Assembly (NCBI RefSeq): GCF_012849055.1
Contig: NZ_CP051677.1
Location: forward strand, 5,161,001 to 5,225,000
Origin: Spirosoma rhododendri
GTDB taxonomy: Bacteria; Bacteroidota; Bacteroidia; Cytophagales; Spirosomataceae
DNA length: 64,000 nt
Direction: 5' to 3'
Position 1 is the first letter of the stretch. Every line of letters starts with the position of its first letter. Both the position numbers and the translations under genes were made by a program. Of this stretch, positions 1-23,057 are shown piece after piece. The notes beneath the pieces are model-generated. The model did not search any database. It saw nothing but the letters and a program-made list of their open reading frames with translations, and was not told where the DNA came from.

Positions 1-990
1 CAATCCGGCCAGCCGAACCTTGCTCTCCCTGTCGGTACCACCCTCGACCGCTTTATTCTGCGTGAACAGAGTGCATTCCCCTTTGCTACGGGCGAACTCT
101 CGCAGTTGCTGCGCGACATTGCGCTGGCCAGCAAAATCATAAATCTGGAGATCAACCGAGCGGGGCTGATCGACGTGACGGGCGCGGCCGGTACCGATAA
201 TATTCAGGGCGAATCGCAGCAGAAACTCGATGTTATTGCCAACATCCGGTTCATCCGCGCCCTGAAAAACGGCGGAGAAGTCTGCGCGATTATCTCGGAA
301 GAGGACGACGAGATGATTCTGACGGGCAATCCCAACGGCAAGTATGTGGTCGCCATCGACCCGCTCGACGGTTCGTCCAATATCGACGTCAACGTATCGA
401 TTGGGACCATTTTCTCCATCTACCGACGGGTGTCGCCTATTGGTTCGGAGGCTACGATGGCCGATTTTCTGCAAGGGGGGCGAAAGCAGGCAGCGGCTGG
501 CTACGTGCTGTATGGCTCGTCGACGATTCTGGTTTTCACGACCGGGCAGGGCGTCAACGGCTTCACGCTCGATCAGTCGCTGGGTGAGTACATCCTGTCG
601 CACACCAACATGCGCCAGCCGCACACCGGCTCGATCTTTTCGTGCAACGACGGCAACGTAGCCGACTACCCGGACTATGTGCAGACGTACCTGACCAGTT
701 GTCGGCAGCACCGGATGACGGGCCGGTACATTGGTTCGCTCGTGGCTGATTTTCACCGTAATCTCATCAAAGGCGGCATCTACTTGTACCCGCCCACCCG
801 CCAGTCGCCGGGCGGCAAACTCCGGCTGCTGTACGAGTGCTTTCCGATGGCGTTCATCGCCGAACAGGCCGGTGGGCGCGCCACCGACGGGCGGCAGCTC
901 ACCCTCGACGTCGACCCGACAGAGCTACACCAGCGGTCAGTTCTGTTCGTCGGCTCACCCGACCTGATCGATAAGTTACTGATCTCCTAA
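1..990 (+). CDS. fbp: Class I fructose-1,6-bisphosphatase (5' end outside window)
   Basis: Hydrolyses fructose-1,6-bisphosphate to fructose-6-phosphate in gluconeogenesis, in the cytoplasm. The frame is open from base 1, reading through GTTLDRFI and [15 protein letters not shown], so the start codon lies upstream of the window and the first in-window start-like codon (TTG at 106) is internal. 329 residues are visible. Diagnostic class I motifs are SEEDDE (about 292-312) and the metal/phosphate motif [10 protein letters not shown] (about 358-390), then the substrate region GGIYLYPP and the C-terminal [15 protein letters not shown]. The stop is followed at once by a hairpin terminator. The last 13 codons and this terminator recur at 3103-3207. 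Confidence 0.97.
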
Positions 991-6022: not shown

Positions 6023-6943
6023 TCAGTTGAACGACCGCCGGAATTCAAGGGGCGACAGGTTAGTTTTCGTCTTGAAGAATTTGCTGAACGACTGCGAGTG
6101 CTCGAAACCCAGTGCAAACGACACCTCGCCCACCGACACGTTGGTAGTCGACAGCTGTTCTTTTGCCCGTTCGATCAGCTTGTTGTGAATGTACTGCTGG
6201 GCGTTCTGGCCGATCTGCGCCCGTAGCATATCGCTCAGGTAGCTAGGCGACAGGTTCACGTGCTCGGCCAGATACCCGACCGTTGGCAGGCCCTGACTCG
6301 CCGACGTGTTATCCGTAAAATACCGATCCAGCAGATCATCCAGTTTTTGCAGCAGCTCGTGACTGACCGCCTTGCGGGTAATGAACTGCCGATTGTAGAA
6401 CCGGTTGGCGTAGTTCATCAGCAACTCGATCTGGGAGATAACCACATCCTGGCTGAACTCGTCGATCCGGCTGGTCAGTTCCGTTTCGATCATCCCGAAG
6501 ACACCCATAATCGCGGTTTTTTCCGCGTCAGACAGGTGCAGCGTTTCGTTGGTAGCGTACGAAAAGAAACCGTACTGCCGGATGGTTTTCGCCAGCGGGT
6601 AGCCCAGCAGAAAATCGGGATGAATCAGCAGCGTGTATTCCGAACATACACTGGCGTCGTTGTCGTTGCTGCCGATGATCTGCCCCGGCGAAGCAAACAG
6701 CAAACCGCCCTCGTCGAAGTCGTAGTAACTCTGCCCGTACTTTAACCGGCCGCCGAGTCTTGGCTTGTACGATATTTTGTAGAAACCGAGCACATGCGCT
6801 TTGGGGAGTCTTCCCGGGTCGATCTGCGCGACGGTTCCGTTGAGCAGGCTGATCAGCGGATGAGCTGGTTTGGGCAATCCGAAGGCCCGGTGCACCTCGG
6901 TCAGGGAGTTCATTCTGAGCGGGCTGTCGTCGTCTTTTTTCAT
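6023..6943 (-). CDS. AraC family transcriptional regulator
   Basis: 306 residues. N-terminal cupin-like sensor region (FYKISYKPRLGG, YDFDEGGLLFASPGQ) and C-terminal double helix-turn-helix (about 215-304, VGYLAEHVNLSPSYLSDML and VGEVSFALGFEHSQSFSKFFK). It is a clear paralogue of the regulator at 20575-21507. It lies downstream of the SDR gene in the same direction, separated by a hairpin. The SDR promoter carries the 21 bp-phased half-sites expected for such a protein, so it is a candidate regulator of that gene. Confidence 0.93.
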   Translation of the reverse strand: MKKDDDSPLRMNSLTEVHRAFGLPKPAHPLISLLNGTVAQIDPGRLPKAHVLGFYKISYKPRLGGRLKYGQSYYDFDEGGLLFASPGQIIGSNDNDASVCSEYTLLIHPDFLLGYPLAKTIRQYGFFSYATNETLHLSDAEKTAIMGVFGMIETELTSRIDEFSQDVVISQIELLMNYANRFYNRQFITRKAVSHELLQKLDDLLDRYFTDNTSASQGLPTVGYLAEHVNLSPSYLSDMLRAQIGQNAQQYIHNKLIERAKEQLSTTNVSVGEVSFALGFEHSQSFSKFFKTKTNLSPLEFRRSFN

Positions 6944-8025: not shown

Positions 8026-8081
8026 CAAAGGTCAGGGGCTGTGATTCCGGCGCTGTAGGCAAATTGCGGGGATTTGTAGCC
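8026..8081 (-). promoter_or_regulatory. AraC-type activator site and -7 box of the SDR gene
   Basis: Read on the minus strand: half-site GGCTAC (8076-8081), half-site GCCTAC (8055-8060, 21 bp later), then exactly 21 bp to GACCTTTG (8026-8033). No TTTG-like -33 box is present; half-site 2 covers its place. The same geometry recurs at 18453-18508 and 19433-19488. Confidence 0.65.
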
Positions 8082-8134
8082 GAAATGCGGAATAACAACC
8101 AGCCCCAACGCAACCAGACTCCGGGAACGAAAAA

Positions 8135-8220
8135 GCCCACAACGAATTGGCCGCTCAACAGCAATTCATCGGCACGGTGGGGCAAATGAATCACTATCGA
8201 GCGGCCAATTGGTTGTGGGC
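8135..8220. repeat. Hairpin downstream of MFS operon
   Basis: Arms 8135-8156 and 8199-8220 (22 bases, one mismatch; GCCCACAACGAATTGG type), with an inner ATTCAT/ATGAAT pair. It lies just past the MFS stop (minus strand) and upstream of the SDR promoter, so it can insulate the two. Confidence 0.8.
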
Positions 8221-8247
8221 GCTTACTACAGAAACATCAAAACGCTA

Positions 8248-9528
8248 TCAGACCGTCAGTTCGGTGGCGGGTTGGGGCTGGTCGGTTTCGTCGCGGAGTT
8301 GCTGGCTGGCGTCGATTTTGAACCAGAGCAGGCCGCCCAGAATCACGATACCGCCGATGAGCCGCACGGGGAGTTCGTAGCTGCCGGTGGCCTGGAGGAT
8401 GTAGCCAAAAGCCGTTGCCATAATGGCCGATCCCAGTTGCCCGGCCAGACCCATCGTGCCCGATACGGCCCCGGCATGCTGACCGCCGATGTCGGTTGCG
8501 GCCGACCACGCTACGGGCAGGGTGAAGTCTTTAAAGGCTAGTCCCAGCCCCAGAAAAATGATGGCTATGCTGGTGTCAGGGATCAGCGAACCGGCAATCA
8601 TACAGATACCCGCCATCACCAGCCCGAACATCCCGACGTAACGACGCCCGAAGGTTATACCCCGTTTTTTGACGAAATAATCGGACGCAAAGCCGCCGAT
8701 CAGGCATCCCGCCATGCCCAGCACAAACGGCAGCGACACCATCCAGCCGAGCTGCGACTTGGGAATACCGCGCCCGTTTTGCAGGTATTTGGGCATCCAC
8801 GACATATAAAAATACGCGCCGTAGAGCAGGCAGTGGTACATGCCCATCAAGGCCCAGATGCTGGAGTTGCCGAACACGGTTTTCCACGCCAGCAGTTTGT
8901 GCGATGTGTGCTTGATGCTCCGGCCGCTTTCGATCAGTTCTACCTCATCGGCCTGAATGCCTCTGATGTCGCGGGGTTCGTCGCGAAACCACCAGAACCA
9001 GTAAGCCGCCCACATCAGGCCCAGCCCGCCGAACAGGTAGAACACTCCGCGCCAGCCGAAGCTCTCGGCCAGTTGGATCGACATGATCGGTGCCATTGCG
9101 CCCCCCATCCGGCTACCCATCCAGACAATCGACTGAATTCGGCCCCGCTCAATTGATGGAAACCAGCGGGCAATGGCCACCGATACCGTTGGGAACGCCC
9201 CCGCTTCGCCCGCGCCGAATAGAAACCGGACGATCAGCAGAAAATAGAAGCCCGTTGCCAGGCCCGTCAGCAGGGTAAACACCGACCACCACAGCACGAT
9301 ACGGAACAGGGTTTTGCGCGGTCCCACCTTGTCGACGAGCAGACCGGTGGGAATTTCAAAGGCACCGTAGGCCAGCGAAAACGCCGACAGGATCAGGCCC
9401 CACTGCTGATCCGACAGCCCAAGTTCGCGGGTAATGTCGTCGCCAACGGAGGAAATCGAGTTGCGGTCGAGGTAGGTGATGATCGCAAAAACGACGAAGA
9501 CCAGAATAAGCTGATAACGTTTCTTCAT
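8248..9528 (-). CDS. MFS transporter, anion:cation symporter type
   Basis: 426 residues with about twelve hydrophobic segments. YLDRNSISS in helix 1 and GAGEAGAFPTVSVAIARWFP in helix 4 are typical of the ACS (hexuronate/tartrate/phthalate) group of organic-anion importers, so inner-membrane uptake of a carboxylate is likely. The start codon overlaps the stop of the upstream EamA gene (ATGA). It is the last gene of a run that includes TcuA-like and PrpF-like enzymes, which fits a tricarboxylate substrate. Confidence 0.9.
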   Translation of the reverse strand: MKKRYQLILVFVVFAIITYLDRNSISSVGDDITRELGLSDQQWGLILSAFSLAYGAFEIPTGLLVDKVGPRKTLFRIVLWWSVFTLLTGLATGFYFLLIVRFLFGAGEAGAFPTVSVAIARWFPSIERGRIQSIVWMGSRMGGAMAPIMSIQLAESFGWRGVFYLFGGLGLMWAAYWFWWFRDEPRDIRGIQADEVELIESGRSIKHTSHKLLAWKTVFGNSSIWALMGMYHCLLYGAYFYMSWMPKYLQNGRGIPKSQLGWMVSLPFVLGMAGCLIGGFASDYFVKKRGITFGRRYVGMFGLVMAGICMIAGSLIPDTSIAIIFLGLGLAFKDFTLPVAWSAATDIGGQHAGAVSGTMGLAGQLGSAIMATAFGYILQATGSYELPVRLIGGIVILGGLLWFKIDASQQLRDETDQPQPATELTV

Positions 9529-10430
9529 GAGGTAACAGGTTGAGGTTTAGTAGGGATAGTTTGTTTTTGCCGTCGGCGAAACGAGAGCAGCAGCCCCGTA
9601 AACACCAGGATGATACCCAGAATACTTTGCCGGGTGTAGCCCTCATCGAAAACGACGTAGCCGATGATGAGGGCGAAAATGACTTCCGAATAGCGGATAA
9701 TGGCCAGAAAACTAACCGCTTCGGTGGGGGCCTGAATGGCTTTGGTCATCAGGTTCTGCGCCCAGAAGCCCACCAGCCCGGTCAGCAGTAGCCACCCGGT
9801 ATCAGCCAACGTGGGCGTCTGCCAGTCGGGTAGCATGATGACCCCGCCCAGCCCGGCCGAAATGGCCATAAAGTAGTGCAGAATGACCAGCGGATGATCG
9901 TCGTCGCCGATGCGCCGGATGATGACGGCCAGCAACCCGCCCGACACCGCCGACAGCAGCCCGATGCCCATGTCGAAGAGGCTGATGCGCGGATCGAAGC
10001 CTTTCAGCAGCAACACCCCCACGAACGTGATGCCGTAGAACAGCCATTGCCGACGCGCCACCTTTTCGCCCAGCATCACCACCGCAAACCCCGCCGTGGC
10101 AATGGGCGACAGGTATTTGAACGCCACCGCCGACCCAAACGGAATGTGGGTGAGGATGTAGAAAAACGAAAACATCGACAGCGACCCCACCAACCCCCGT
10201 ACCACCAGCATGGTCTGGTTGCGGCCCCGCAGCGACACTCCCGCCCACAGCAGGCAGCCCACGCTCAGTCCCCAGCCAATCACCGACCGAAAAAAGATGT
10301 GCTGCGCGTAGCCGAACTGCGGCAGCAGCTTCACCAGCGACTGCATGGCCGTGAAGCAGAACGTGCTGAGGAGCATGTACTGCACGGCCCGGCTCACTCC
10401 GTATCGGTCGGCGCGGCTAGTAAAAGACAT
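9525..10430 (-). CDS. EamA/DMT family transporter
   Basis: 301 residues from the ATG at 10430 (MSFTSRADRYG); a longer frame to 10523 would run deep into the prpF-like gene, so this start is chosen. About ten hydrophobic helices in two EamA repeats. Family members export metabolites; the substrate is unknown. It overlaps the preceding gene end by 14 bases and the following MFS start by 4, suggesting translational coupling. Confidence 0.88.
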   Translation of the reverse strand: MSFTSRADRYGVSRAVQYMLLSTFCFTAMQSLVKLLPQFGYAQHIFFRSVIGWGLSVGCLLWAGVSLRGRNQTMLVVRGLVGSLSMFSFFYILTHIPFGSAVAFKYLSPIATAGFAVVMLGEKVARRQWLFYGITFVGVLLLKGFDPRISLFDMGIGLLSAVSGGLLAVIIRRIGDDDHPLVILHYFMAISAGLGGVIMLPDWQTPTLADTGWLLLTGLVGFWAQNLMTKAIQAPTEAVSFLAIIRYSEVIFALIIGYVVFDEGYTRQSILGIILVFTGLLLSFRRRQKQTIPTKPQPVTS

Positions 10431-11568
10431 ACCCCTGCATGAGCTTACGGGCCGTCCGCATGGTGCCAACTTTACGTACCTGAATCTGATCGCCCTGCCC
10501 GTCGAGTTCGATATTGATTTCAATCACGCCCGACGGGTGCTCGATCACGACCAGTTCGGTAGGTTTACCGTTTTCCCGGCCTACTTCACTCGCTACCGTA
10601 TTGCCAATTTTCAGAGCCGTGCCGATGCAGATAGCCCCCGTTACGGCGTGGCTGGGGTGCAGGGCGTGCGGAGTCAGGTAGCGCGACCGGATGTTATGGT
10701 CCGCCCCCTGCGCCTTCGACAGAATTCCGATCTTAGGCAGTACGCTGTTCGATACGTCGCCCAGTCCGGCCCGCTTACCCGCTTCCCGGCGAATGCGCTC
10801 CAGCCGTTCCATCAGGGCTTTGTTGTTCTTGAAAAAGGCTTCGTCTTCCCCCCCGGTCAGGCCCAAGGCATCGGCCCGGAGCAGCACCATCACCGTGCCC
10901 GCGTCCAGAATCGACACGTCCAGCCCATCGATTTTCTCTTTTCGCTGACCGGTTGGTAGGAGTTTCTTGGTTTTACCGCCGACCTGATCGAAGAGGTTCA
11001 TCAGCACGGGGGCGGCTGTACCGGGCACACCATCGATATGCGCGTTGCCGCTGTATTGCACCCGGCCGTTGGGCGTCTGTATCACCTCTTCAATCACGGA
11101 GTTGGTGTTGATGTTGTAGATCATCACCTTCGTTTCGGGGCTGGTCGCTTTCACCCAGCCTTTTTCAATGGCAAACGGCCCCACCCCCGCCATCATGTTG
11201 CCACAGGGCGGCAGCGTGTCGACCAGCGGATTTTCCAGATCGACCTGCGCGAACAGGTAATCGACGTCGATACCGGGGCGGGTCGAAGGTTGCGCCATCA
11301 CAACTTTGCTTGTCACAGTTTCGGCCCCGCCAAGCCCGTCGATCTGCCGCGCATCGGGCGACCCCATAATCCGCAGAATAATCGAGTCGCGCTGGGCGCG
11401 GTTGCGGGGCAGGTCGCGCAGGTCCAGAAACGGCCCCCGCGATGTGCCCCCGCGCATGAACACGCACGGGATGGCGTTGGCGGGTGCGGGAGAAGACTGC
11501 GCCAGCGAAGCCAGCGGACTGGTCAGCGCATAGGCCAACCCGATCAGAATCAGAGCGAAACGGTTCAT
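10417..11568 (-). CDS. PrpF-family aconitate/oxalomesaconate isomerase with signal peptide
   Basis: 383 residues. After a Sec-type signal (MNRFALILIGLAYALTSP, cleavage near SLA-QS) the protein follows the PrpF fold: PCVFMRGGTSRG, GLGGAETVTSKV, CGNMMAGVGPFAIE and HPSHAVTGAICIGTA. Known relatives isomerise 2-methylaconitate, trans-aconitate or 4-oxalomesaconate by proton transfer in the cytoplasm. A signal peptide is unexpected and suggests periplasmic action. Its ATG overlaps the tcuA-like stop (ATGA). The pairing with TcuA suggests an aconitate-like intermediate; this is inference. Confidence 0.88.
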   Translation of the reverse strand: MNRFALILIGLAYALTSPLASLAQSSPAPANAIPCVFMRGGTSRGPFLDLRDLPRNRAQRDSIILRIMGSPDARQIDGLGGAETVTSKVVMAQPSTRPGIDVDYLFAQVDLENPLVDTLPPCGNMMAGVGPFAIEKGWVKATSPETKVMIYNINTNSVIEEVIQTPNGRVQYSGNAHIDGVPGTAAPVLMNLFDQVGGKTKKLLPTGQRKEKIDGLDVSILDAGTVMVLLRADALGLTGGEDEAFFKNNKALMERLERIRREAGKRAGLGDVSNSVLPKIGILSKAQGADHNIRSRYLTPHALHPSHAVTGAICIGTALKIGNTVASEVGRENGKPTELVVIEHPSGVIEINIELDGQGDQIQVRKVGTMRTARKLMQGYVFY

Positions 11569-13109
11569 TGGTTCAATGTGGATGATTCGTGTACACTAAA
11601 CTGCGCTGCCGACTGCCCCGCGTGCCGCCCAAACACCGCCCCGGAAGTGAGACCCGAACCGCCGGGGTAGCCATGAAAGAAAACGCCCCCAACCATTTCG
11701 CCACAGGCAAACAGGCCGGGAATGGGTTCTTCGTCGGGCGTCAGCACTTCCCCGTTCTGATTAACGGCTAACCCGCCGTAGGTGAACGTAATGCCGCAGG
11801 TGACGGGATAAGCCCGAAACGGCGGGGTCGCGAGGGGGTTGGCCCAGTTGGTTTTTTCGGGCGAAAGTCCTTCGGTGCGTTTGCCGTCTTTGCGGGTAGG
11901 GTCAAACGGTACGTCGCGGCTGACTTCGGTAGCCTTGTTGTAGGCGTCGACGGTAGCCAAAGCGGTTGCCTGATCGATACCGTCGAGTTTGGCAATCAGG
12001 CCGGGCAGGGTATCGGCTTCGACCATGCTCGTAAATCGGAAGCGGTAGTCGGCATAGAGGTACGGCTCGGCACTGGCGTCGAACAGTTGCCAGGCCACGT
12101 TGCCGGGTTGTTCGATGATAGCTTTACCAAACTGGGCGTAAGTGTAGTTGCGCATATCAAGGCCCTCATCGACAAAGCGTTGCCCATCGGCGTTGAGCAT
12201 CAGGCCGTACAGGTACGAGATTTTCCGGTAGTGCTTGCGCTCGTTGTGGGGCAGGTCGGTGTTGCCGTAATCGGGCATGTGCTTGTCCATCGGTACAGCG
12301 TGGCAACCGCCGAAATTACCGCGCAGCCCGGCTCCCAGACGGGACGCCAGTTCCAGTCCTTTGCCCGTGTTGTGGCGGGTGCCGCGCACTTTAGCGTCGG
12401 CCCATTCTTCGCCCAGAAACTTCGTTCTGAGTTCTTTGCTGGCTTCAAACCCACCGCAGGCCAGCACCACGGCGCGGCACGGAATCCAGGTCGTAACCCC
12501 ATCCCGATTGCACAGCACGCCCTGAATCTCGCCATCCTGCACGTCGATTTCCTCAGCCGCGCAGTTGTACAGGATCGTGCCGCCCAGCCGCTCAAACTCG
12601 GCCCGTTCGGCCCGCACCAGCCCATCGCCTTCACCTTCCACATCGAGGGCCAGGCCGCCCCAGAACGTATGTCGCCCGTCTTTCAGAAAACTTTGCCGGG
12701 CGTAGCTGGGGTCGAACCGGACGTTATGACTCGCCAGCCACTGCATCACCGACAGGCTTTCGTCGACCAGAAACCGTTGGAGTTCGGTGGGTGGTTCGCC
12801 CAGATTGAAATGTTGCAGATCGGCCAGAAACTGGCTTTTCGGGTAACTGCCGAAATCGGTGATGGGTAGCCGTTCGTCGCTCTTGTCGCGGATGAGCGGG
12901 CGAATCTCGTCGGCCGAATCGAAGGCGAAGCGCATGGCCCCGGCGGTGTACCGGCTGTTGCCACCCCACTCCGCTTCATCGGCTTTCTCGACGATCAGCA
13001 CGCTGGCTCCGTTTTCGAGGGCTGATATGCCCGCACACAAAGCCGCACTGCCACTGCCGACAATCAGCACGTCGACACTAGAAAGGTTGTTCTGTTGGGT
13101 TGTATTCAT
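11565..13109 (-). CDS. tcuA: FAD-dependent tricarballylate dehydrogenase-like (TcuA family)
   Basis: 514 residues from ATG 13109 (MNTTQQNN). FAD-binding VDVLIVGSGSAALCAGISA and EKADEAEWGGNSRYTAGAMRF at the N-terminus; C-terminal GITFTYGGLAVNQNGEV and PGLFACGEMVGGVFFHGYPGGSGLTSG, typical of fumarate reductase/TcuA-like flavoproteins. TcuA of enterobacteria oxidises tricarballylate to cis-aconitate. The usual electron-transfer partner TcuB is not seen nearby. It is the first enzyme gene after the TonB receptor and overlaps prpF by 4 bases. Another FAD-dependent dicarboxylate/tricarboxylate oxidation cannot be excluded. Confidence 0.85.
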   Translation of the reverse strand: MNTTQQNNLSSVDVLIVGSGSAALCAGISALENGASVLIVEKADEAEWGGNSRYTAGAMRFAFDSADEIRPLIRDKSDERLPITDFGSYPKSQFLADLQHFNLGEPPTELQRFLVDESLSVMQWLASHNVRFDPSYARQSFLKDGRHTFWGGLALDVEGEGDGLVRAERAEFERLGGTILYNCAAEEIDVQDGEIQGVLCNRDGVTTWIPCRAVVLACGGFEASKELRTKFLGEEWADAKVRGTRHNTGKGLELASRLGAGLRGNFGGCHAVPMDKHMPDYGNTDLPHNERKHYRKISYLYGLMLNADGQRFVDEGLDMRNYTYAQFGKAIIEQPGNVAWQLFDASAEPYLYADYRFRFTSMVEADTLPGLIAKLDGIDQATALATVDAYNKATEVSRDVPFDPTRKDGKRTEGLSPEKTNWANPLATPPFRAYPVTCGITFTYGGLAVNQNGEVLTPDEEPIPGLFACGEMVGGVFFHGYPGGSGLTSGAVFGRHAGQSAAQFSVHESSTLNQ

Positions 13110-13159
13110 GAGTGGTTGAGTTCGAGTAGGAATCAAATAAGGTGTACTAAAAATTGTGT

Positions 13160-13366
13160 GGCGTTGATCTCCCGCTGGCGGCTGACCTCACCCCCGGCCC
13201 CTCTCCTAAAACAGGAGAGGGGAGGTTTTAAAGACTAACTGGTATTCGTTTTATGATGATGTCGATGGTCACACCTAGTTGATCGATAGAAACCGAAGGG
13301 GCTAGTCACCCCTCTCCTGTTTTAGTAGAGGGGCCGGGGGTGAGGTCATTGTCCGAGGTCAACGCC
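13160..13366. repeat. Long hairpin between TonB receptor and tcuA
   Basis: Arms 13183-13222 and 13309-13348 (40 bases, one mismatch), each holding a CCCCTCTCCTaaaacAGGAGAGGGG-like inner palindrome. Outer arms GGCGTTGA/TCAACGCC (13160-13167, 13359-13366) also pair. The inner word recurs at 41328-41352 and twice in 61444-61631. It lies between the receptor stop and the tcuA start in one transcription direction, so it may attenuate or process the transcript. Confidence 0.88.
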
Positions 13367-13372
13367 AACCCC

Positions 13373-16300
13373 TTAAAAAGCGTAGTTCACCGTCAAATTC
13401 AGGAAGCGGCCCTGCATACCGAACTGGTTGGTCCGGCGCGAGAAAACGACTTCACTATTCGTTTGGGGCACCTGAAGCAGATCGGGGTATACGTCGAAAA
13501 CGTTGTTGACCATGCCGATAACAGACAGCTTCCGAACGGGGCGGAACGTCACCGACGCGTCGAACAACGTTCTGGCGCTGAACACCTGATAGGTCGGCGC
13601 GCTGACATCGGTTGGTTTCACGGCCAGCGTAGCCAGCGGGTCCGATACCTGCCCGAAGCGCGAGCCGCGCACCATCAGGCCGAATTTGCCGTAGTCGTAG
13701 TTGACCGTACCGATAAATTTGTCTCGCGGCAGACCATCGGTGATGTACAGGGTCGCCACCTGATCGGCTACTTCGATGCCCGTCGCCGTTTTACGGTTGG
13801 CGCGCAGGCTCGTGTTCATCGACGAATACGCCAGGTTGATGCCGATTTTACTTTTCGTCGTCAATGGCCGGTTGTAGGTCGTGACCAGCTCGAAACCACG
13901 GGTGCGGGTGTCGATGGCGTTGACAAATACGTTAGCCGTTTGCGGGAAGCCAGCCGCCACGAACTGCGGAATCTTCGACACGTCGATGTTGCCCGACAGC
14001 ATGATGCGGTTATCGACATCGATCTGGTAGAGGTCGGCGGTCAACGTGAAATACTGCCCGATTTTCGAGGTGATCCCCGCCGAGTAGTCGCGCGAGATTT
14101 CCTGCTTCAGCCCGTCGATACCCAGCAGTTCAGCCAGTGCCGACTCAGCCGGGATAATGGGGTTGATGATCGAATTGCCCGCGTTGTCGAACGAGATGTT
14201 GACGTAGTTACTGTAGTAGGCCTGCGTGACCGACGGGGCGCGGAAGCCCCGGCTGAATGACGCCCGCACGGCAAACGGCTCGGCAATTTTGTAGCGCGAA
14301 TTGATTTTGTACGACATGTTGGAACCGAAGTCGCTGTAGTTCTCAAACCGGGCAGCCGCGCCCACCAGCAGCTTGGCGGTCAGGTCGCTTTCGCCTTCTA
14401 CGTACACCCCAACGTTGGTCCGGCCCCACTGCCCGGCAGCCCAGTTGCTGAACCCTTCCCGACCCAACGAACCGATGTCTTTCGTCAGGCGCAGCGGCCC
14501 CGCTTCGTAGGACGCCGGGTCGCCCGAGCGCAGGCGGTAGGTTTCATAGCGGATCTCGGTACCGGCCCCCAGGTTGAAATTCGGGTAGCTGCCCTGCCGG
14601 TAAGTGCGGGCCACATCGGCGTTGAAGAGCGACTGCGTGTTGCGGGTCTGCCCCACGTAAAACGAGGTCGGCGACTGAGCGCCCAGGCTCGGGTTCACCG
14701 TATTGCGCACGTACCAGTCAACCTGATTCATGCCCTGCGACACGCTGAAATCCGCGTTCCACTCACCGAGTTTTCCTTTCAGGCCGGCCGTCAGCGAGAC
14801 GTCCTGCAAATTCGCGGGGGCTTCGGGGTTGTAGCCGTTCGGAAAAATCGTCAGGTCCGACCGGCGCGTGTTCGTTGGGGCGCGGGTGAACACACCCGTT
14901 ACGACGTGTTTGTGGGTGTAGCCGCCGAAACCGTATAGCTGCCAGTTTTTGCCCACCGGCAGACCAGCGTTGATAAAAATGCCGTAAGTGGTATTGCGGG
15001 CCGACCCCAGCACGGCCCGGTTCAGGTCGATGTTGTTTTGTTTCACCAGTTGGGCGTCCTGCACGGGGTCTTTGACGTAATAACCCGCCGACGATTTGTA
15101 CGTACCCGACCGGTCGTAGCCATCGGTATGTGCGTAGGTTACGGTGGTGTTGACAAACCCTTTTTGTGCCAGCTTCAGGCCGAAATTGGCATTCAGGTTA
15201 TAGGTGGCTCCGTCGGTGATGAGCGTCGGTGGAATCTGCCCGGTTACGTCCAGGTTGGGCTTCGAGTAGCCGATACCGGTAAATACGTTGATGGCTCCGC
15301 CCTTTGCCGCGTCGTTAAGTTCAAGGTTGATAACCCCGGCAATGGCGTCGGAACCGTACTGAGCTGCGGCCCCATCGCGCAGGACTTCCACCCGCTTCAG
15401 CGACAGCGAGGGCACCACGTTGATGTCGGTACCGACCTGCCCTTTACCCACGCCGTCGTTGATACTGACGAACGATACCTTGTGCCGACGTTTGTTATTG
15501 ACCAATACCAGCACCTGATCGGGGCCGAGGCCGCGCAGCGTAGCCGGATCGACGAAGGGGGCGGCATCATTGATACCGAACTTAACGGCGTTGAACGACG
15601 GAGCCGCAAACGTAATCGTCTGCCCCAGATCGACCTGTCCCGACGATTGCAGTTCTTTGGCACTGATCACATCAATAGCTACGGGCCGGTCGACGTCGGT
15701 GCGGGGCTGGGCAAAGCGCGACCCCACGACGACCACTTCCGACAGGTTGGCTTCCGACTGTTTGAGCGATACCGTGAGGGGGTTGTTGTTTTCGATGGCA
15801 ACCTCCCGGCTGACGTAGCCGATGTACGAGAAAATCAGCGTTTCGCCGATGTTAGCGTCGATACTGAACGTGCCTTCGGGGCTGGTGGCGGTGCCGCGCT
15901 GGGTGCCTTTCACCACCACGCTAACGCCCGGCATCGCTTCGCCCCGCTCGTCGGTCACCTTTCCGGTCTGTTTTTCCATACCGGCGGGGCTGGGTACGTT
16001 TGGGCCTGCATCGGCCGAACGGTTCAGGATGATTTTGTTGCCGCTGATTTCGTAGGTCAGGCGCATGGGTTGCAGCAGCAGCTTCAGCACGTTGGAGAGC
16101 GTTTCCTGCCGGGCATTGAGTGTCACGAGCCGGTCGCTCTGAATCAGCCGGGAGCTAAAAATGAATTTTACCTGCGTGAGTGTTTCAAGCTGGGCCAGTA
16201 CCCGGTCGAGCTGCTGGTTCTGGCACTGGAAGGTTACGGGGCGGGCCAGCACTTCCTGCGCCCGGATTTCGGTAGCGTAGGTCAGCCCGGAAAAGAGGAT

Positions 16301-16375
16301 CACAAGGAGAAACTGGGCACAGCTCAATTTCATGAGTTTGAGCAGTAAGGGCTGCCTCGTAGAGAAAAAATACAT
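13373..16375 (-). CDS. TonB-dependent receptor with STN signalling domain
   Basis: 1000 residues from ATG 16375 (MYFFSTRQPLLLKL). Order: signal peptide (about 1-40), secretin/TonB short N-terminal domain (about 45-100, VTFQCQNQQLDRVLAQLE and FIFSSRLIQSDRLVTL), carboxypeptidase-D-like domain (about 135-215), plug (about 220-350, with ATLRGLGPDQVLVLVNNKRR), then a beta-barrel ending in aromatic NYAF. The STN domain is what FecA-type receptors use to signal through FecR to an ECF sigma factor, and both genes lie upstream. There is no SusD gene, so it is not a SusCD glycan importer. Confidence 0.93.
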   Translation of the reverse strand: MYFFSTRQPLLLKLMKLSCAQFLLVILFSGLTYATEIRAQEVLARPVTFQCQNQQLDRVLAQLETLTQVKFIFSSRLIQSDRLVTLNARQETLSNVLKLLLQPMRLTYEISGNKIILNRSADAGPNVPSPAGMEKQTGKVTDERGEAMPGVSVVVKGTQRGTATSPEGTFSIDANIGETLIFSYIGYVSREVAIENNNPLTVSLKQSEANLSEVVVVGSRFAQPRTDVDRPVAIDVISAKELQSSGQVDLGQTITFAAPSFNAVKFGINDAAPFVDPATLRGLGPDQVLVLVNNKRRHKVSFVSINDGVGKGQVGTDINVVPSLSLKRVEVLRDGAAAQYGSDAIAGVINLELNDAAKGGAINVFTGIGYSKPNLDVTGQIPPTLITDGATYNLNANFGLKLAQKGFVNTTVTYAHTDGYDRSGTYKSSAGYYVKDPVQDAQLVKQNNIDLNRAVLGSARNTTYGIFINAGLPVGKNWQLYGFGGYTHKHVVTGVFTRAPTNTRRSDLTIFPNGYNPEAPANLQDVSLTAGLKGKLGEWNADFSVSQGMNQVDWYVRNTVNPSLGAQSPTSFYVGQTRNTQSLFNADVARTYRQGSYPNFNLGAGTEIRYETYRLRSGDPASYEAGPLRLTKDIGSLGREGFSNWAAGQWGRTNVGVYVEGESDLTAKLLVGAAARFENYSDFGSNMSYKINSRYKIAEPFAVRASFSRGFRAPSVTQAYYSNYVNISFDNAGNSIINPIIPAESALAELLGIDGLKQEISRDYSAGITSKIGQYFTLTADLYQIDVDNRIMLSGNIDVSKIPQFVAAGFPQTANVFVNAIDTRTRGFELVTTYNRPLTTKSKIGINLAYSSMNTSLRANRKTATGIEVADQVATLYITDGLPRDKFIGTVNYDYGKFGLMVRGSRFGQVSDPLATLAVKPTDVSAPTYQVFSARTLFDASVTFRPVRKLSVIGMVNNVFDVYPDLLQVPQTNSEVVFSRRTNQFGMQGRFLNLTVNYAF

Positions 16376-16481
16376 AGATTTAACGGGTTTAAGTTGTGGC
16401 AACGAGAACCTGGCGTCCACTGAAAAGTGGGCAACATTCCCCCGCAACAGAGTTGGCGCTCGGTTCCGGGGCACTTACTTT

Positions 16482-16517
16482 CGGCAGTTCTGTTGGCGCA
16501 GAACTGCCGTTTTTTTT
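16482..16517 (+). terminator. Intrinsic terminator facing against the operon
   Basis: CGGCAGTTCT (16482-16491), 8-base loop, AGAACTGCCG (16500-16509), then eight T. It is a textbook terminator for plus-strand transcripts, yet all genes here are on the minus strand. It lies in the fecR-receptor gap. It may stop antisense transcription, or act on the minus-strand RNA as a stabilising hairpin in the receptor leader. Confidence 0.75.
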
Positions 16518-16529
16518 CACTGACTGCGT

Positions 16530-17642
16530 TTAGCGGCAACCTTTCCCGCTCACGATAATCTGCCCGTCGACGGCTTCGTACTGCGCTTCGATGGCCCGAC
16601 AGATCAGATCGAGTTTACCGTAAAGCGACTCGTCGGCCAGCGATGCCGTAACGGGGCAGTCGCGCATCAGGGCCGCATCGTACAGAATCGGGATACCGTA
16701 GGCCCGTTCGATCCGCTCGAAAACCGTAGCCGCCGGGGTATTCTGAAACGTGAAGTCGGCCGCAGTTTCGGGCTGAATCAAGAGCGGCTGGCTGACGATG
16801 TTTTTGGCGAAACTGTCGGCCTGCCGGTTGTAGATAAGTTGCTGATTGGGTGTGATGATAACGCCCTGTAATTTTTTGGCGAGGGCGGGGCGATTACTGT
16901 CTGTTTCGCGGTAAACCGATACTTTACCCGTCCTGACAACTACCTCCACCGCATCGCTGGCCGTACTCGTTTTGACCAGAAAGCTGGTGCCCAGCACCTT
17001 CGTGACTACCTCCCCGGCATGGACCAGAAAGGGCTGCTTGGGATTGCGGGTGATGTCGAAAAAGCCGTCGCCATCGAGATACACCTCCCGAACGGCCCCC
17101 GCAAACTGCGCCGGGTAACTCAGCCGACTGTTGCGGGCCAGCCGGACCGAACTCCCATCGGGCAGGTCGACGCGCATCGGTTCGTTGGCCGGGTTCACCC
17201 GTTCGATGAGGGCCTTCTGGCTGACCTGCCGATCATACAGCGACTCGGAGACTGCTGTGCGGCTGTAGGCCCAGATGCCTAAAATCAGCGCTACTGATGC
17301 CGCCAGCCCCAGCCCCCAGCGGCTCCAGTTGATGGACGTATGCAGCGGGCGAACAACCGGCTCGGGTTCTGCGGTCGTGGCTGAAACCAGCCGGTCCTGC
17401 ATCTGGAGAAATTGCTGCCGGATGTGCACTTCCGACCATTTCAGCGAAAGCCGGTCCAGAATGGCCACGGCCGCATCGACGGTGGGCTGCTGATCGGGGT
17501 GATCTTCCAGAAATTCGTCCCACTCCCAAACGTCGGCTTCGTTTTTCTGAAAGTAATAATTCAGAAAGCCTTCGTTGGTCAGCAGGTCGTCGGTAGCAAG
17601 CGGATAAATCGGTTTCACAGGATAACGTCGGTTGGTATTCAC
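16530..17642 (-). CDS. FecR family anti-sigma factor
   Basis: 370 residues. Cytoplasmic N-terminus (1-105), one membrane helix (about 108-126), then a periplasmic FecR domain (about 150-270, with VRLARNSRLSYP and DGDGFFDITRNPKQPFLVHAGEVVTKVLGTSF) and a C-terminal DUF4974-like STN-interacting part (about 290-368). It holds the ECF sigma factor inactive until the loaded receptor signals. It lies between the sigma and receptor genes, as is usual in Bacteroidota. Confidence 0.93.
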   Translation of the reverse strand: MNTNRRYPVKPIYPLATDDLLTNEGFLNYYFQKNEADVWEWDEFLEDHPDQQPTVDAAVAILDRLSLKWSEVHIRQQFLQMQDRLVSATTAEPEPVVRPLHTSINWSRWGLGLAASVALILGIWAYSRTAVSESLYDRQVSQKALIERVNPANEPMRVDLPDGSSVRLARNSRLSYPAQFAGAVREVYLDGDGFFDITRNPKQPFLVHAGEVVTKVLGTSFLVKTSTASDAVEVVVRTGKVSVYRETDSNRPALAKKLQGVIITPNQQLIYNRQADSFAKNIVSQPLLIQPETAADFTFQNTPAATVFERIERAYGIPILYDAALMRDCPVTASLADESLYGKLDLICRAIEAQYEAVDGQIIVSGKGCR

Positions 17643-17718
17643 TCATACAGAGGAACCCAACAGCCAGAATCTTCCCGGTTTTTTCAAAAAATTTTGCAGA
17701 AAATTTATACTTGCCCGA

Positions 17719-18279
17719 TCAGATGGGTTTCAGCACAGTTTTGAGCCGTTTCAGGGCTTCGTGCAGGGTCTTGTAGATACTGTCGATTTGCAGGCCGGTC
17801 TGCTCCGCAATTTCTTTGTACGACAGTTCTTCAAAGTATTTGAGGGTGACAATCTCTTTCTGCCGGGTGGTCAGTTCGTTCATGGCCTGCACCAGCCGGG
17901 TGCGCCGGGAATCGTCTTCCTCCTGCGCCACCAGAATATCTTCGTACGACGTAACCGGCAGGTAATCGTCGGTCAGGGGTTCGGTCGCTGTGCGTTGCCC
18001 CTGAGCAGCGGCCTTCGCCAGCCGCTTTTTCAGTGATCCTTTGAGGTAAGCCTCGAACGAGCTTACGTCGCCCAACGTCTGCCGGTACTGCCACAGGTCC
18101 TGAAAAACGCCCTGAATAGCTTCTTCGGTGAGGGCGCTGTCGTGCGACCATTTCACCCCGGCCCGGAATAGCGGATTGTAGTAGGTGGTAAACAAAAACT
18201 GCAATGCCTTCTCATCGTCCTGCCGAAGGGCCTGGAGCACCAGCGTGTCAACATAGCGGCCATTTTCTGCATTATTCAT
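17719..18279 (-). CDS. ECF-type RNA polymerase sigma factor
   Basis: 186 residues from ATG 18279 (MNNAENGRYV). Region 2 at about 18-85 (LFTTYYNPLFRAGVKW, IQGVFQDLWQYR) and region 4 at about 125-180 (LTTRQKEIVTLKYFEELSYKEIAEQTG). Regions 1 and 3 are absent, as in ECF factors. With FecR and the STN-containing receptor downstream it forms a cell-surface signalling unit. It should direct transcription of the receptor and perhaps of the catabolic genes. Confidence 0.93.
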   Translation of the reverse strand: MNNAENGRYVDTLVLQALRQDDEKALQFLFTTYYNPLFRAGVKWSHDSALTEEAIQGVFQDLWQYRQTLGDVSSFEAYLKGSLKKRLAKAAAQGQRTATEPLTDDYLPVTSYEDILVAQEEDDSRRTRLVQAMNELTTRQKEIVTLKYFEELSYKEIAEQTGLQIDSIYKTLHEALKRLKTVLKPI

Positions 18280-18452
18280 AGACGAAATTGAAGGATAACA
18301 CAAAAGTGCAGATTATCTCTGCGTTTTTCAAGCATGACAAACCAATAAACCTGTCCGGCTACCCCGCGCAAGCTAGCCTATCCGCTCGCAAACAGCCACC
18401 AGCAACCCAGAGTAAAATTACTTACCGATTTACTGGTCACGACCATTGATTC

Positions 18453-18508
18453 GGCTACAACAATCGTAAATCTGGCTACGGCGGGGGTGTGGGAAGGGCG
18501 GACCTTTG
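18453..18508 (+). promoter_or_regulatory. AraC-type activator site and -7 box of NmrA-like gene 1
   Basis: Half-sites TTCGGCTAC (GGCTAC at 18453-18458) and TCTGGCTAC (18474-18479) are 21 bp apart. Exactly 21 bp then separate the second from GACCTTTG (18501-18508). No -33 TTTG is present. Confidence 0.65.
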
Positions 18509-18531
18509 TACCAGCCAAACCAGCGAATACC

Positions 18532-19401
18532 ATGATACTAATAACGGGAGCCACCGGCCAACTGGGCGGGGCCGTCATCGACCACCTACTGAAACAAGTA
18601 CCTGCCAGCCAGCTTGCGGCCTTCGTGCGCGACGAGCAGAAAGCCGCTCCCCTGCGCGAACTGGGCGTAAGTCTGCGCGTGGGTACCTACGACGATACGG
18701 CCTCGCTCGACCGGGCGATGCAGGGCATCGACACGGTACTGCTGGTAGCGGGCACCGATGAAGAAAAGCGCGTGCAGCAGCACCAGAACGTGGTCAACGC
18801 GGCCAAACGGGCGGGTGTGCAGCGCATTGCCTACACAAGCCGTGCCCTCAAAGACCGCACGACGCTGGTGAATCGGCTGATGGACGGGCATTTCCAGACG
18901 GAAGATTACATCAAAGCCAGCGGCCTGACGTACACGCTGTTTCGAAACATCCTGTACATGGACGCCATTCCGCAGTTCATTGGGGGCAATGCCGTTTTCG
19001 AGCGCGGCATCGTTGTACCGGCGGGGCAGGGTCGGGTGTCGTTTGCCCTGCGGAGTGACATGGGCGAAGCGATGGCCAACGCTCTGGTCCGGCCACCCGA
19101 AGGTAGCGTAACCTACCAGCTTACCAACCGGGAAACGTATTCGTTCCACGACATCGCTGCGGCCCTCACCGACCTGTCGGGCAGGCCGGTTACCTACACC
19201 CCCGTTGAGCCAGCCGCTTTCGAAGCGCAACTCATCGGGCGCGGCCTGCCCGACGTCATGGCTCGGCGCATCACCGGCTTCATCACCGACATTGCCAACG
19301 GGCAGGAAGATATCGTAACCCCTGATCTGGAAACCCTGTTGGGCCGCAAACCGGCGTCGTTGAACGAGGGGCTTGCCCGGCTGTTTAGTCTGGTGCGGTG
19401 A
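18532..19401 (+). CDS. NmrA-like NAD(P)H-binding oxidoreductase 1
   Basis: 289 residues from ATG 18532 (MILITGATGQLGG); the frame continues upstream but only through promoter sequence. Atypical SDR of the NmrA/QorB type: TGATGQLGG cofactor motif, RDEQKAAPL, GTDEEKRVQQHQN and IAYTSRALK in place of the catalytic Tyr-Lys pair. It may be an NAD(P)H:quinone reductase or a redox sensor. Same length as, and clearly paralogous to, the gene at 21620-22489. Confidence 0.9.
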   Translation: MILITGATGQLGGAVIDHLLKQVPASQLAAFVRDEQKAAPLRELGVSLRVGTYDDTASLDRAMQGIDTVLLVAGTDEEKRVQQHQNVVNAAKRAGVQRIAYTSRALKDRTTLVNRLMDGHFQTEDYIKASGLTYTLFRNILYMDAIPQFIGGNAVFERGIVVPAGQGRVSFALRSDMGEAMANALVRPPEGSVTYQLTNRETYSFHDIAAALTDLSGRPVTYTPVEPAAFEAQLIGRGLPDVMARRITGFITDIANGQEDIVTPDLETLLGRKPASLNEGLARLFSLVR

Positions 19402-19432
19402 TTGATAATTAGACGGAGCAAACCCGTGATCC

Positions 19433-19488
19433 AGTTAGGACAACCGTAGATTCGGCTACGCCAGCCGGGCGCAGAAGGCAGACCTTTG
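19433..19488 (+). promoter_or_regulatory. AraC-type activator site and -7 box of NmrA-like gene 2
   Basis: ATTCGGCTAC (GGCTAC at 19454-19459) is followed after exactly 21 bp by GACCTTTG (19481-19488). A weaker half-site (ATCCAGTTAG, core 19433-19438) lies 21 bp upstream. No -33 TTTG. Confidence 0.6.
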
Positions 19489-20421: not shown

Positions 20422-20540
20422 TTGTCATCCCGACGTTAGGACCGGGCCGCCGGAGCGGGGATCTCCGCTGACAGGTAGTTTCATTTGTTCTTACCGAAGA
20501 TCCCCGCTCCGGCGGCCCGGTCCTAACGTCGGGATGACAA
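20422..20540. repeat. Hairpin with perfect 43 bp arms
   Basis: Arms 20422-20464 and 20498-20540 are perfectly complementary over 43 bases, with a 33-base loop. The outer word TTGTCATCCCGACG is shared with the nested hairpin at 4079-4176. It fills the gap between NmrA-like gene 2 and the AraC gene, both plus strand. Confidence 0.92.
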
Positions 20541-20574: not shown

Positions 20575-21507
20575 ATGCAGCCGCGTCGTATCAGCACCAT
20601 CAGTGAGTACCATCAGGTTCGGGAACTGCCCCGGCCGGAACACCCGCTCATTAGCGTGATCAATCTCGATCAGCTCGACAAATCGTATGACTGTGAGCCG
20701 GTTAGTCTGGTGCTCGATTTCTATTCCATTGCCCTGAAACGGAACCCGCACAGCAAGATGAAATATGGGCAGCAGACCTACGATTTCGACGAAGGTGTAC
20801 TGTTTTTTATCGCACCGGGGCAGGTATTCAGCATTGAACCGGCACCGGCGTCGGATCGACCGGCGGGGGCTAACCCCGTAAAATCGTCGGGCTGGATTAT
20901 GCTCATTCACCCGGATTTTTTGTGGAACACGCCCCTCGCCCGGACCATCCGGCACTATGACTACTTCGACTACGCAGTGCATGAAGCGCTGTTTCTGTCT
21001 GACAAGGAAGAAGAAACGATGGTGGGCATCATTCGCAGTATTCAACAGGAGTACCAGTCGGCTATCGACACGCTGAGCCGCGACATTATCGTGGCGCAAC
21101 TGGAAGTGCTGCTCAAGTACGCCGAGCGATTCTACAAACGGCAGTTTATCACCCGCAGCCTGACGAACAACAAGCTACTCGACCGGCTTGAAAGCACGTT
21201 AGATGCTTATTTTGCCCGCGAATTGCTCATCGAAACCGGCCTGCCGACGGTGCAGTACGTGGCGGATGCGCTCAACGTGTCGCCCAACTACCTGAGCGGC
21301 CTGCTCAAAACCCTGACCGGCCAAAGCACGCAGCAGCACATTCACAACAAACTCATCGAGCGGGCTAAAGCGCAGTTATCGACCACCGATCTGTCGGTCA
21401 ACGAGATTGCGTACGCGCTGGGTTTCGAGCACCCGCAGTCGTTCAGTAAGCTGTTTAAAAGCAAAACCAGTCAGTCGCCCGTCGAATTTCGGCAGTCGTT
21501 TAATTAA
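20575..21507 (+). CDS. AraC family transcriptional regulator (paralogue)
   Basis: 310 residues, paralogous to the protein at 6023-6943 throughout: EHPLISVINLDQL, KMKYGQQTYDFDEGVLFFIAPGQ, IERAKAQLSTTDLSVNEIAYALGFEHPQ and a C-terminus near FRQSFN. Sensor domain at about 20-200, two HTH motifs at about 220-308. It lies downstream of two NmrA-like genes whose promoters carry AraC-type direct repeats, so it or its paralogue is the likely activator. Confidence 0.93.
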   Translation: MQPRRISTISEYHQVRELPRPEHPLISVINLDQLDKSYDCEPVSLVLDFYSIALKRNPHSKMKYGQQTYDFDEGVLFFIAPGQVFSIEPAPASDRPAGANPVKSSGWIMLIHPDFLWNTPLARTIRHYDYFDYAVHEALFLSDKEEETMVGIIRSIQQEYQSAIDTLSRDIIVAQLEVLLKYAERFYKRQFITRSLTNNKLLDRLESTLDAYFARELLIETGLPTVQYVADALNVSPNYLSGLLKTLTGQSTQQHIHNKLIERAKAQLSTTDLSVNEIAYALGFEHPQSFSKLFKSKTSQSPVEFRQSFN

Positions 21508-21619: not shown

Positions 21620-22489
21620 TTACTTACCACCGAAATACGTGGTTTGCAGGTAGTCGCGCAGTGACGCCGGTTTCCGGCCGAGCAGTTGCGTCAGTGTATC
21701 GCCGGGCAGGTCGAAATCGTTCTTACCAATGGCATTGGCAAAACCGATTGTGAACCCGATCGCACCTTCCGGTACGCCTGCGTTCGTCAGGACATTGGTA
21801 TACACGTCGTTTGGCGCGTCGGTGTAGGTGATGCTTTTACCAGCCAGTTCCGACAGGATGGCAGCCGCATCGTCCATCGACCAGCTTTCCGTGTTGACAA
21901 GCTCGTAGGTCTGGTTGTCGTGTCCGTCGCCGGCAAGCACGTTGGCGGCTGCTTCGGCCATGTTTTCGCGGGTAGCATACGGCACGCGCCCCTGCCCTGC
22001 TGGCAGGAAAATACCCGTTTCCAGCACACCGGGACCGAAGAACATCGGCAGTACATCGGCATACAGGCTGTTGCGCAGGAAGGTGTACGTCAGGCCCGAT
22101 TTCTTCAGGTTTTCTTCGGTTTCAAAGTGCTCACCCATGAAGTCTTTCAACGGCGACTGGTCGATGTTCTGCATCGTTACGCCCGTGTAGACTACCCGCG
22201 TTACGCCCGCTTCCTTCGCGGCATTGATTACGTTGAGGTGTTGCCCAACCCGGTCGTCCAGATCGCTGGTCGAGACAAGCAACAACGTATCGACGCCCTG
22301 AAACGCCTGCACCATCGACGCTTTGTCGTGGTAATTGCCGACACGGACACTAACCCCTTTTTCGGCCAGGTCAGCGGCTTTGGCAGCATCCCGTACCAGT
22401 ACGGCTACCTGATCGGCAGCTACTTTTTTAAGCAGAAAATCAACAACGGCACCGCCCAGATGGCCGGTAGCTCCGGTTACAAGAATCAT
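21620..22489 (-). CDS. NmrA-like NAD(P)H-binding oxidoreductase 3
   Basis: 289 residues from ATG 22489 (MILVTGATGHLGG). Atypical SDR like gene 1: RDAAKAADL, STSDLDDRVGQHLN, RVVYTGVTMQN, EENLKKSGLTYTFLRNS. Probably an NAD(P)H:quinone reductase-type or redox-sensing protein. It is divergent from an HxlR regulator with paired operator-like repeats between them, the arrangement seen for HxlR-controlled quinone reductase genes. Confidence 0.9.
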   Translation of the reverse strand: MILVTGATGHLGGAVVDFLLKKVAADQVAVLVRDAAKAADLAEKGVSVRVGNYHDKASMVQAFQGVDTLLLVSTSDLDDRVGQHLNVINAAKEAGVTRVVYTGVTMQNIDQSPLKDFMGEHFETEENLKKSGLTYTFLRNSLYADVLPMFFGPGVLETGIFLPAGQGRVPYATRENMAEAAANVLAGDGHDNQTYELVNTESWSMDDAAAILSELAGKSITYTDAPNDVYTNVLTNAGVPEGAIGFTIGFANAIGKNDFDLPGDTLTQLLGRKPASLRDYLQTTYFGGK

Positions 22490-22571
22490 GGTTCTATTCG
22501 TTTTAATACCTACAATCAAGTTGTGCGCTCTGTCATCAATCAACGGCCGCACATTGCTAGTACAAATGACC

Positions 22572-22632
22572 TACCTTTGATTTACTTTTGAAAGTAGTTT
22601 CCAAAACGAAAGTAGTTTCCCCTGAGAAAGTA
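22572..22632. promoter_or_regulatory. HxlR promoter with tandem operator-like boxes
   Basis: A -7 box TACCTTTG (22572-22579) is followed by GAAAGTAGTTTCC at 22590-22602 and again at 22608-22620 (18 bp apart), then a partial GAAAGTACCC. TACTTTTGAAAGTA (22583-22596) is itself palindromic. These are likely operators for the adjacent HxlR protein, covering its own start and the divergent NmrA-like promoter. Confidence 0.6.
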
Positions 22633-22640
22633 CCCTGCCC

Positions 22641-23057
22641 ATGAACCAGAAAAAGACCGACGAGTTTCGATTTACGCCCCACTGCCACGAGCAACTTCGT
22701 GCTATCTACGACACGCTTGATCTGGTCAGCGGCAAATGGCGCATTGCCGTCATCAGCTCACTAAATTTTCTGGGCGAATGCCGCTTCGGCGAGTTGCAGC
22801 GCATTGTCGATGGCATCGGTGCCAAAATGCTCTCGCAGGTGTTGAAGGAGCTGGAAGACAACGAACTGGTAATCCGGACGGTACACGACACCAAGCCCGT
22901 AACGGTATCGTACAGGCTGACCGACTACGGCCGGACGCTGGAAAAAATCATCGAAGAAATGGCCAGCTGGGGGATTAATCATCGTCGGCGGATTCTGCAC
23001 GACAATACGGCTCCTGCGCCCATCAGCGAACCGGAGCCAGTCACTGCTGATTGGTAG
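22641..23057 (+). CDS. HxlR family winged-helix regulator
   Basis: 138 residues. HxlR signature: CHEQLRAIYDTLDLVSGKWRIAVISSL, FGELQRIVDGIGAKMLSQVLKELEDNELV, TVSYRLTDYGRTL. It binds DNA as a dimer. Many members respond to quinones, aldehydes or diamide through a cysteine; a Cys at the start of the domain (HCHEQ, residue 18) is present. It probably controls the divergent NmrA-like gene. Confidence 0.93.
   Translation: MNQKKTDEFRFTPHCHEQLRAIYDTLDLVSGKWRIAVISSLNFLGECRFGELQRIVDGIGAKMLSQVLKELEDNELVIRTVHDTKPVTVSYRLTDYGRTLEKIIEEMASWGINHRRRILHDNTAPAPISEPEPVTADW

Follow-up and report, generated by a model that had tools for sequence, protein, structure and literature searches.

A probable AraC-family operator-promoter with two fixed 21-bp distances upstream of NAD(P)-dependent reductase genes in Spirosoma rhododendri and related Bacteroidota

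Introduction

AraC of Escherichia coli binds at araI1-I2 to a direct repeat of two half-sites with a period of 21 bp, of which the promoter-proximal araI2 is located at the upstream core element. A 21-bp direct-repeat operator was also inferred for the AraC-type rhamnose regulators of Bacteroides, which differ from the system described here in their role in sugar catabolism and in their unique motif sequences, according to the excerpted text of that report, in which neither the distance to the −7 box nor the sequence of this box is mentioned (PMC3870299). As stated in part of another report, E. coli YqhC, a regulator with an N-terminus of the AraC-N type, activates yqhD and dkgA, coding for an NADPH-dependent aldehyde reductase and a methylglyoxal reductase, and was suggested by its authors to modulate its own expression (PMC8262776). 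The consensus promoter of Bacteroides is given as −33 TTTG and −7 TAnnTTTG (PMC10620806), and the TAnnTTTG box appears in excerpts of two further reports (PMC10309648; PMC5682007). Here we describe a promoter layout found in front of three oxidoreductase genes within a 64,000-nucleotide stretch of the Spirosoma rhododendri genome (hereafter the window; contig NZ_CP051677.1, positions 5,161,001 to 5,225,000), next to two genes for AraC-family regulators, araC1 and araC2.

The layout, its conservation, its linkage to araC genes, the change of its −7 box, the classes of its target genes and the predicted fold of the regulators are described from the sequences. As in E. coli AraC at araI1-I2 and other direct-repeat activators of the AraC/XylS family, the period is 21 bp and the near half-site would be located at the upstream core element; regulatory and DNA-binding domains are also alike in predicted fold. 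Unlike E. coli AraC, the half-sites have another sequence, the core promoter is of the Bacteroidota type and has its −7 box at a constant distance of 21 bp, the targets are reductases, and the regulator gene is usually located downstream of its target in tandem. YqhC belongs to another phylum and controls other target genes, and is likened to this clade by function only, not by operator or sequence. AraC operators with a 21-bp period are thus already known, Bacteroides included; what is new is the regulon, the motif, the fixed distance to the Bacteroidota −7 box and the systematic change of this box. No description of the operator or the regulon of this AraC clade was found in the open-access literature, which is weak evidence of absence.

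Three promoters of one layout in the window

P1 operator-promoter, 8026..8081, minus strand: half-sites GGCTAC (8081-8076) and GCCTAC (8060-8055), GACCTTTG −7-like box (8033-8026), profile score 42.6
P2 operator-promoter, 18453..18508, plus strand: half-sites GGCTAC (18453-18458) and GGCTAC (18474-18479), GACCTTTG (18501-18508), profile score 42.5
P3 operator-promoter, 19433..19488, plus strand: degenerate far half-site AGTTAG (19433-19438), GGCTAC (19454-19459), GACCTTTG (19481-19488), profile score 26.1

A preliminary description of the window had proposed a single layout for all three promoters, consisting of a half-site, a second half-site at a 21-bp period and, after another 21 bp, GACCTTTG. 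This was confirmed, both distances being exact in each promoter, and so was the observation that the repeat is clear in P1 and P2 and degenerate in the far copy of P3. The layout has the 21-bp direct-orientation repeat of an AraC-type operator, P3 in part only. In all three promoters an ATG is located 20 to 25 bp downstream of the GACCTTTG box. For the pairs P1/P2, P1/P3 and P2/P3, the number of identical bases is 8, 8 and 8 of 8 in the box, 8, 8 and 9 of 11 in the near half-site, 10, 5 and 6 of 11 in the far half-site, 8, 4 and 9 of 20 in the 21-bp spacer before the box, and 2, 3 and 8 of 9 in the inter-half-site stretch. The claim that the intervening bases differ therefore holds for the 21-bp spacer (4 to 9 of 20 alike) and fails for the inter-half-site stretch when P2 is compared with P3 (8 of 9), a stretch that belongs to the conserved profile of the relatives.

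The window was then scored with a profile trained on other genomes (see below). The high scores were those of P1, P2 and P3 only, followed by −2.3 as the next best, and the top score in 100 first-order Markov windows was 7.9. Among 528 other spacing pairs tested in the window (10-32 by 10-32), none gave a score above 24.2. A chance similarity of three promoters in 64 kb might be suspected, as the pattern was picked after viewing them and P3 is partial; against the scores of 42.6, 42.5 and 26.1 from a profile of other genomes, with at most 7.9 in random windows, such a coincidence is hardly credible. Chance or a copied repeat element as the origin of the three promoters was rejected on these scores together with the unlike 21-bp spacers.

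Layout upstream of related AraC-family genes

We next compared 80 loci, the best 80 relatives of araC2 from one scan of public genomes. GGCTAC was found 34 times at the design distance from ANNTTTG and 33 times one period further, and 0 to 3 times at other distances (10 to 49). The repeat of GGCTAC at 21 bp was found 15 times, as against 0 to 2 at other lags. A profile trained on 67 sites from these loci shows, in order, TTTYGRCTACAACAA, AGTAG, ATTYGGCTACATCTG, a T-rich spacer with a TGCTGCG end, and [G/C]ANNTTTG with an A-rich leader. It reaches a score of at least 20 in 75 of the 80 loci, the same loci that supplied the training set; four of the remaining five have their best site in the expected region at 17.8-19.4, and the fifth (L052) scores 12.9. 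The exact GACCTTTG was rejected as the conserved box: it is a local form, the box being mostly [G/C]ANNTTTG across genomes.

The targets are mostly NAD(P)-binding reductases (SDR, NmrA-like, MDR and aldo/keto reductase), usually encoded just upstream of araC. The boxes are not placed at random relative to gene starts, since 99 of 118 (a few sites being counted twice) have the called start codon 18-26 bp after their last base.

Likely constraint on the spacing

A separate sample was made of 75 AraC relatives at E 1e-45 or better from 198 genomes of the host's class, with at most 11 candidates scored per genome, and the surroundings of 72 were examined, the other three being araC1, araC2 and the paralog at host locus L113. 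At cut-offs from 18 to 22, 18 of the 72 loci pass with 21/21 spacing on the coding strand and none on the reverse strand; at a cut-off of 16 the numbers are 19 and 1. The 18 include one copy of a training locus, and in all of them the AraC identity is about 43% or more. In an 11 by 11 matrix of spacings at a cut-off of 18, 21/20 and 21/22 gave 7 loci each and the other cells apart from 21/21 gave 0 to 2. When the best spacing was taken for each of the 20 loci scoring at least 18, in a test covering half-site lags of 20-22 only, 21/21 was best in 18, 21/22 in L202 and 20/19 in L146; at scores of at least 20, it was best in 18 of 19, the exception being 21/22. Between the end of the near half-site and the predicted −7 box there are 21 bp. 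Presence of the layout in 75 of 80 related loci of the training set and in 18 of 72 separately sampled ones supports the earlier proposal that the spacing is under selection. For AraC proteins below 43% identity, 21 was also the top lag among those listed, a rank resting on only 2 clear repeats.

In several of the sampled loci the half-sites were changed to GCATAC or GGATAC with the spacing unchanged. Conservation of the spacing while the half-site letters move is the best sign of a constraint on the geometry itself. At L149 and L154, GCATAC half-sites precede aldo/keto reductase genes, and the AraC relatives of these two loci share changes from the GGCTAC group in both helix-turn-helix (HTH) regions (KVLTG to RVHTG; FSKLFK to FSALFK or FSTLFK). 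These changes may offer a lead, from two cases only, for decoding the specificity.

The layout might instead be the remnant of one ancestral promoter copied with its gene pair, with no functional demand on the spacing. Many relatives are indeed the same NmrA-araC pair, and spacer divergence tracks regulator divergence: in a Mantel test against HTH divergence, r was 0.53 for the inter-half-site stretch, 0.43 for the 21-bp spacer, 0.32 for the far half-site, 0.17 for the near half-site, 0.11 for the upstream segment and 0.02 for the box. The letters of the 21-bp spacer, however, have diverged (mean distance, 0.61) far beyond those of the half-sites (0.20 and 0.28) and the box (0.22) at fixed length, only one of the 19 sampled loci at a score of at least 20 fits better elsewhere (21/22), and targets as unlike as SDR, NmrA-like, MDR and aldo/keto reductase genes share the layout. 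We consider a mere remnant very improbable.

Altered −7 box and lack of the −33 element

The core promoters were examined by comparing NANNTTTG boxes upstream of ATG codons in the best 80 loci, boxes with intermediate half-site scores being excluded from both groups. The first base of the 60 design boxes was G in 37, C in 21, T in one and A in one, while T was found in 91 of the 174 others (p = 1.8e-14); ANNTTTG of the box was part of the search pattern. The design boxes depart from the canonical Bacteroidota −7 TANNTTTG, and none of the P1-P3 boxes begins with T. As to the −33 element, TTG at 18-24 bp before the box was found in none of the 60 design promoters, as against 22 occurrences among the 174 others; the canonical −33 TTTG is thus missing from the design. 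This lack supports the earlier view that the near half-site would take the place of the −33 element. Compared with the Bacteroidota core promoter, ANNTTTG is common to both, whereas nearly all design promoters have G or C for the first T, and a half-site stands at the −33 place. A promoter lacking one core element and off consensus in the other should be weak by itself, as expected of an activator-dependent promoter.

Some AraC-family proteins act as repressors, and the near half-site covers the −33 region, where a bound AraC could block RNA polymerase until released by its ligand. Good core elements are expected of a repressible promoter, whereas the 60 design promoters have no TTG at 18-24 bp and a box off consensus; repression is accordingly an improbable role for the site.

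Linkage to the AraC clade

The layout was searched for in a phylum sample (247 genomes, 61 of the host's class) and a class sample (198 genomes), with the reversed pattern as control. In the phylum sample it was found 14 times in 12 genomes, as against 5 for the control. The host's class holds 13 of these 14, and the single outsider is inside a coding frame. An AraC relative follows downstream on the same strand in 11 of the 14, one of them only 36% identical; the other three are a match 788 bp from a contig end, one with no relative within 1.5 kb, and the match in the coding frame. In the class sample, 6 of 8 matches have an AraC relative 0.9-2.1 kb further downstream on the same strand; the remaining two are a match within a coding frame, the genome of which has no AraC match, and one with no open frame after it. 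Five matches are common to both samples, so that 12 of 17 different matches are linked to an AraC relative. This genomic linkage supports the AraC paralogs as the likely regulators, as had been proposed.

We then considered whether the half-sites serve another regulator, such as a distant AraC or the HxlR-type protein encoded at 22641 in the window, the adjacent AraC genes being bystanders. The host carries eight paralogs of the clade and the HxlR gene is nearby. On the other side, the layout is upstream of members of this very clade in the 12 matches, a 21-bp direct repeat is the AraC-type form of operator, and the NmrA-like neighbour of the HxlR gene lacks a 21/21 site at a score of at least 20. 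Another regulator appears unlikely on these grounds.

On the same contig as L169, the locus L129 carries a strong 21/21 site (~1440-1640; score 40.5), with neither a long open frame after it nor an AraC match in the 3-kb locus. It is possibly an orphan or relic promoter.

Sites in the host genome

The 6.05-Mb host genome was scanned for the near half-site plus box, and the profile was applied to the host stretches examined. Exact matches were found at four places, P1, P2, P3 and 4425757; the last one, inside an open frame of 689 amino acids, is probably due to chance. Six sites score at least 20 in the stretches examined: P1, P2, P3, L113, L132 and L133. The L113 site (34.9), also among the places matched when up to one mismatch was allowed, is located 23 bp before a quinone-oxidoreductase gene, the end of which overlaps an araC paralog; both half-sites are GGCTAA, and the 21/21 spacing is kept. 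L132 (33.4) is the promoter of an SDR gene beside a further araC. L133 is a weak site (23.2) with the box GACCTTCG directly before an araC paralog, the reading frame of which is apparently split between two frames (L133, 4110-4474); this paralog is possibly an autoregulated relic.

Proposed mode of regulation

Because the layout recurs in related bacteria beside one AraC family, it is very probably the landing pad of that family. We consider it highly probable, as judged from the sequences, that the layout is the operator-promoter of a Bacteroidota clade of AraC-family activators switching on NAD(P)-dependent reductases, and the half-sites are likely to be the operator of this clade acting in class II fashion. 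An AraC dimer would bind the two half-sites (consensus TTTYGRCTACAACAA and ATTYGGCTACATCTG), which have the same orientation and are separated by two helical turns, with the near one where sigma would seek −33 TTTG. From this fixed position, 21 bp ahead of the −7 box, the bound activator would stand in for the −33 contact. The box retains ANNTTTG, but its first base is G or C rather than T, a change that should reduce basal transcription and create dependence on the activator. Where the regulator gene directly follows its target, as is often the case, the two are probably co-transcribed, which would create positive feedback. A small ligand, such as a carbonyl, quinone or other electrophile handled by the reductases, is the probable inducer and would be bound in the N-terminal cupin-like domain. 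Binding, activation, feedback, ligand, the assignment of each paralog to its promoters, and the transcription start are predictions of this scheme.

A broader proposal goes further and is held with little more than even confidence: that a hitherto undescribed reductase regulon of Bacteroidota extends through the class, in which activators of this one AraC clade take over the −33 contact made by the primary sigma factor and have become part of the core promoter, the −33 element being lost, the −7 box ([G/C]ANNTTTG) being selectively weakened, and the 21+21 geometry being kept while the half-site letters follow the regulator.

Several observations weigh against the AraC operator-promoter reading. 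P3 has a single clear half-site, the near one. The p value of 0.0015 for TTG treats occurrences as boxes, and the range of 18-24 bp was picked after the counts had been seen; at 15-17 bp, TTG occurs 7 times among the 60 design promoters and 12 times among the 174 others. In the class sample the layout and the reversed control both gave 8 matches, and in the host 39 places were found for the short pattern of the near half-site when up to one mismatch was allowed, as against 75 for the reversed control; position beside AraC alone separates true sites from pattern matches. The site is missing in 54 of the 72 sampled AraC loci (42 below 43% identity, 12 not) and in three of the eight host paralogs (L130, L131 and L134). 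The 109 targets include single matches to other families (one Cupin_2, one ThiJ_like). Since spacers correlate with HTH divergence as well as or better than half-sites, the Mantel test cannot part operator co-evolution from descent. Finally, 172-181 bp separate araC1 and araC2 from their targets, and araC2 is preceded by a large palindrome, so that co-transcription within the window is doubtful.

As an operator-promoter of the AraC clade, the layout would serve as a code by which to predict from sequence what these regulators control, and as a clean system for studying how recognition of the −33 element by the unusual sigma factor of Bacteroidota can be replaced by an activator. That the first T of the −7 box is systematically lost is a specific and testable clue to the building of tight, activator-dependent promoters in this phylum.

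Genes and repeats next to the promoters

araC1, AraC-family regulator, 6023..6943, minus strand: 181 bp past the SDR gene and on its strand
SDR oxidoreductase gene after P1, 7125..8000, minus strand: PF00106; NCBIfam NF006114 above cut-off
NmrA-like NAD(P)-binding oxidoreductase gene after P2, 18532..19401, plus strand: PF05368
Second NmrA-like NAD(P)-binding gene, after P3, 19509..20402, plus strand
araC2, AraC-family regulator, 20575..21507, plus strand: 172 bp past the second NmrA-like gene, same strand as both NmrA-like genes

The products of araC1 and araC2 are 49% identical. Both have the features of the AraC/XylS family, a C-terminal AraC-type double-HTH DNA-binding domain and an N-terminal cupin-like regulatory domain as in AraC and RhaR; for araC2 the predicted domains are an AraC/RhaR-like regulatory domain and an AraC DNA-binding domain. 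A conserved thiol switch in the regulators was considered and rejected, as cysteine is present in at most 8 of 113 members at any alignment column. The commonest targets in the relatives are proteins with the same kind of start as the second NmrA-like protein.

The palindrome that separates the second NmrA-like gene from araC2 (~20425-20540) is long and near-perfect. It has ten matches in the host genome, counting itself on both strands, indicating that it is a dispersed palindromic repeat; it may end or modulate transcription into araC2. The third NmrA-like gene diverges from the HxlR-type regulator gene (21620-23057), and the two form a second, differently regulated reductase-regulator pair next door. 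Just upstream of P1, an inverted repeat, TTGGCCGCTC ... GAGCGGCCAA, was noted by eye at ~8140-8217, between the SDR promoter and a neighbouring MFS-like gene.

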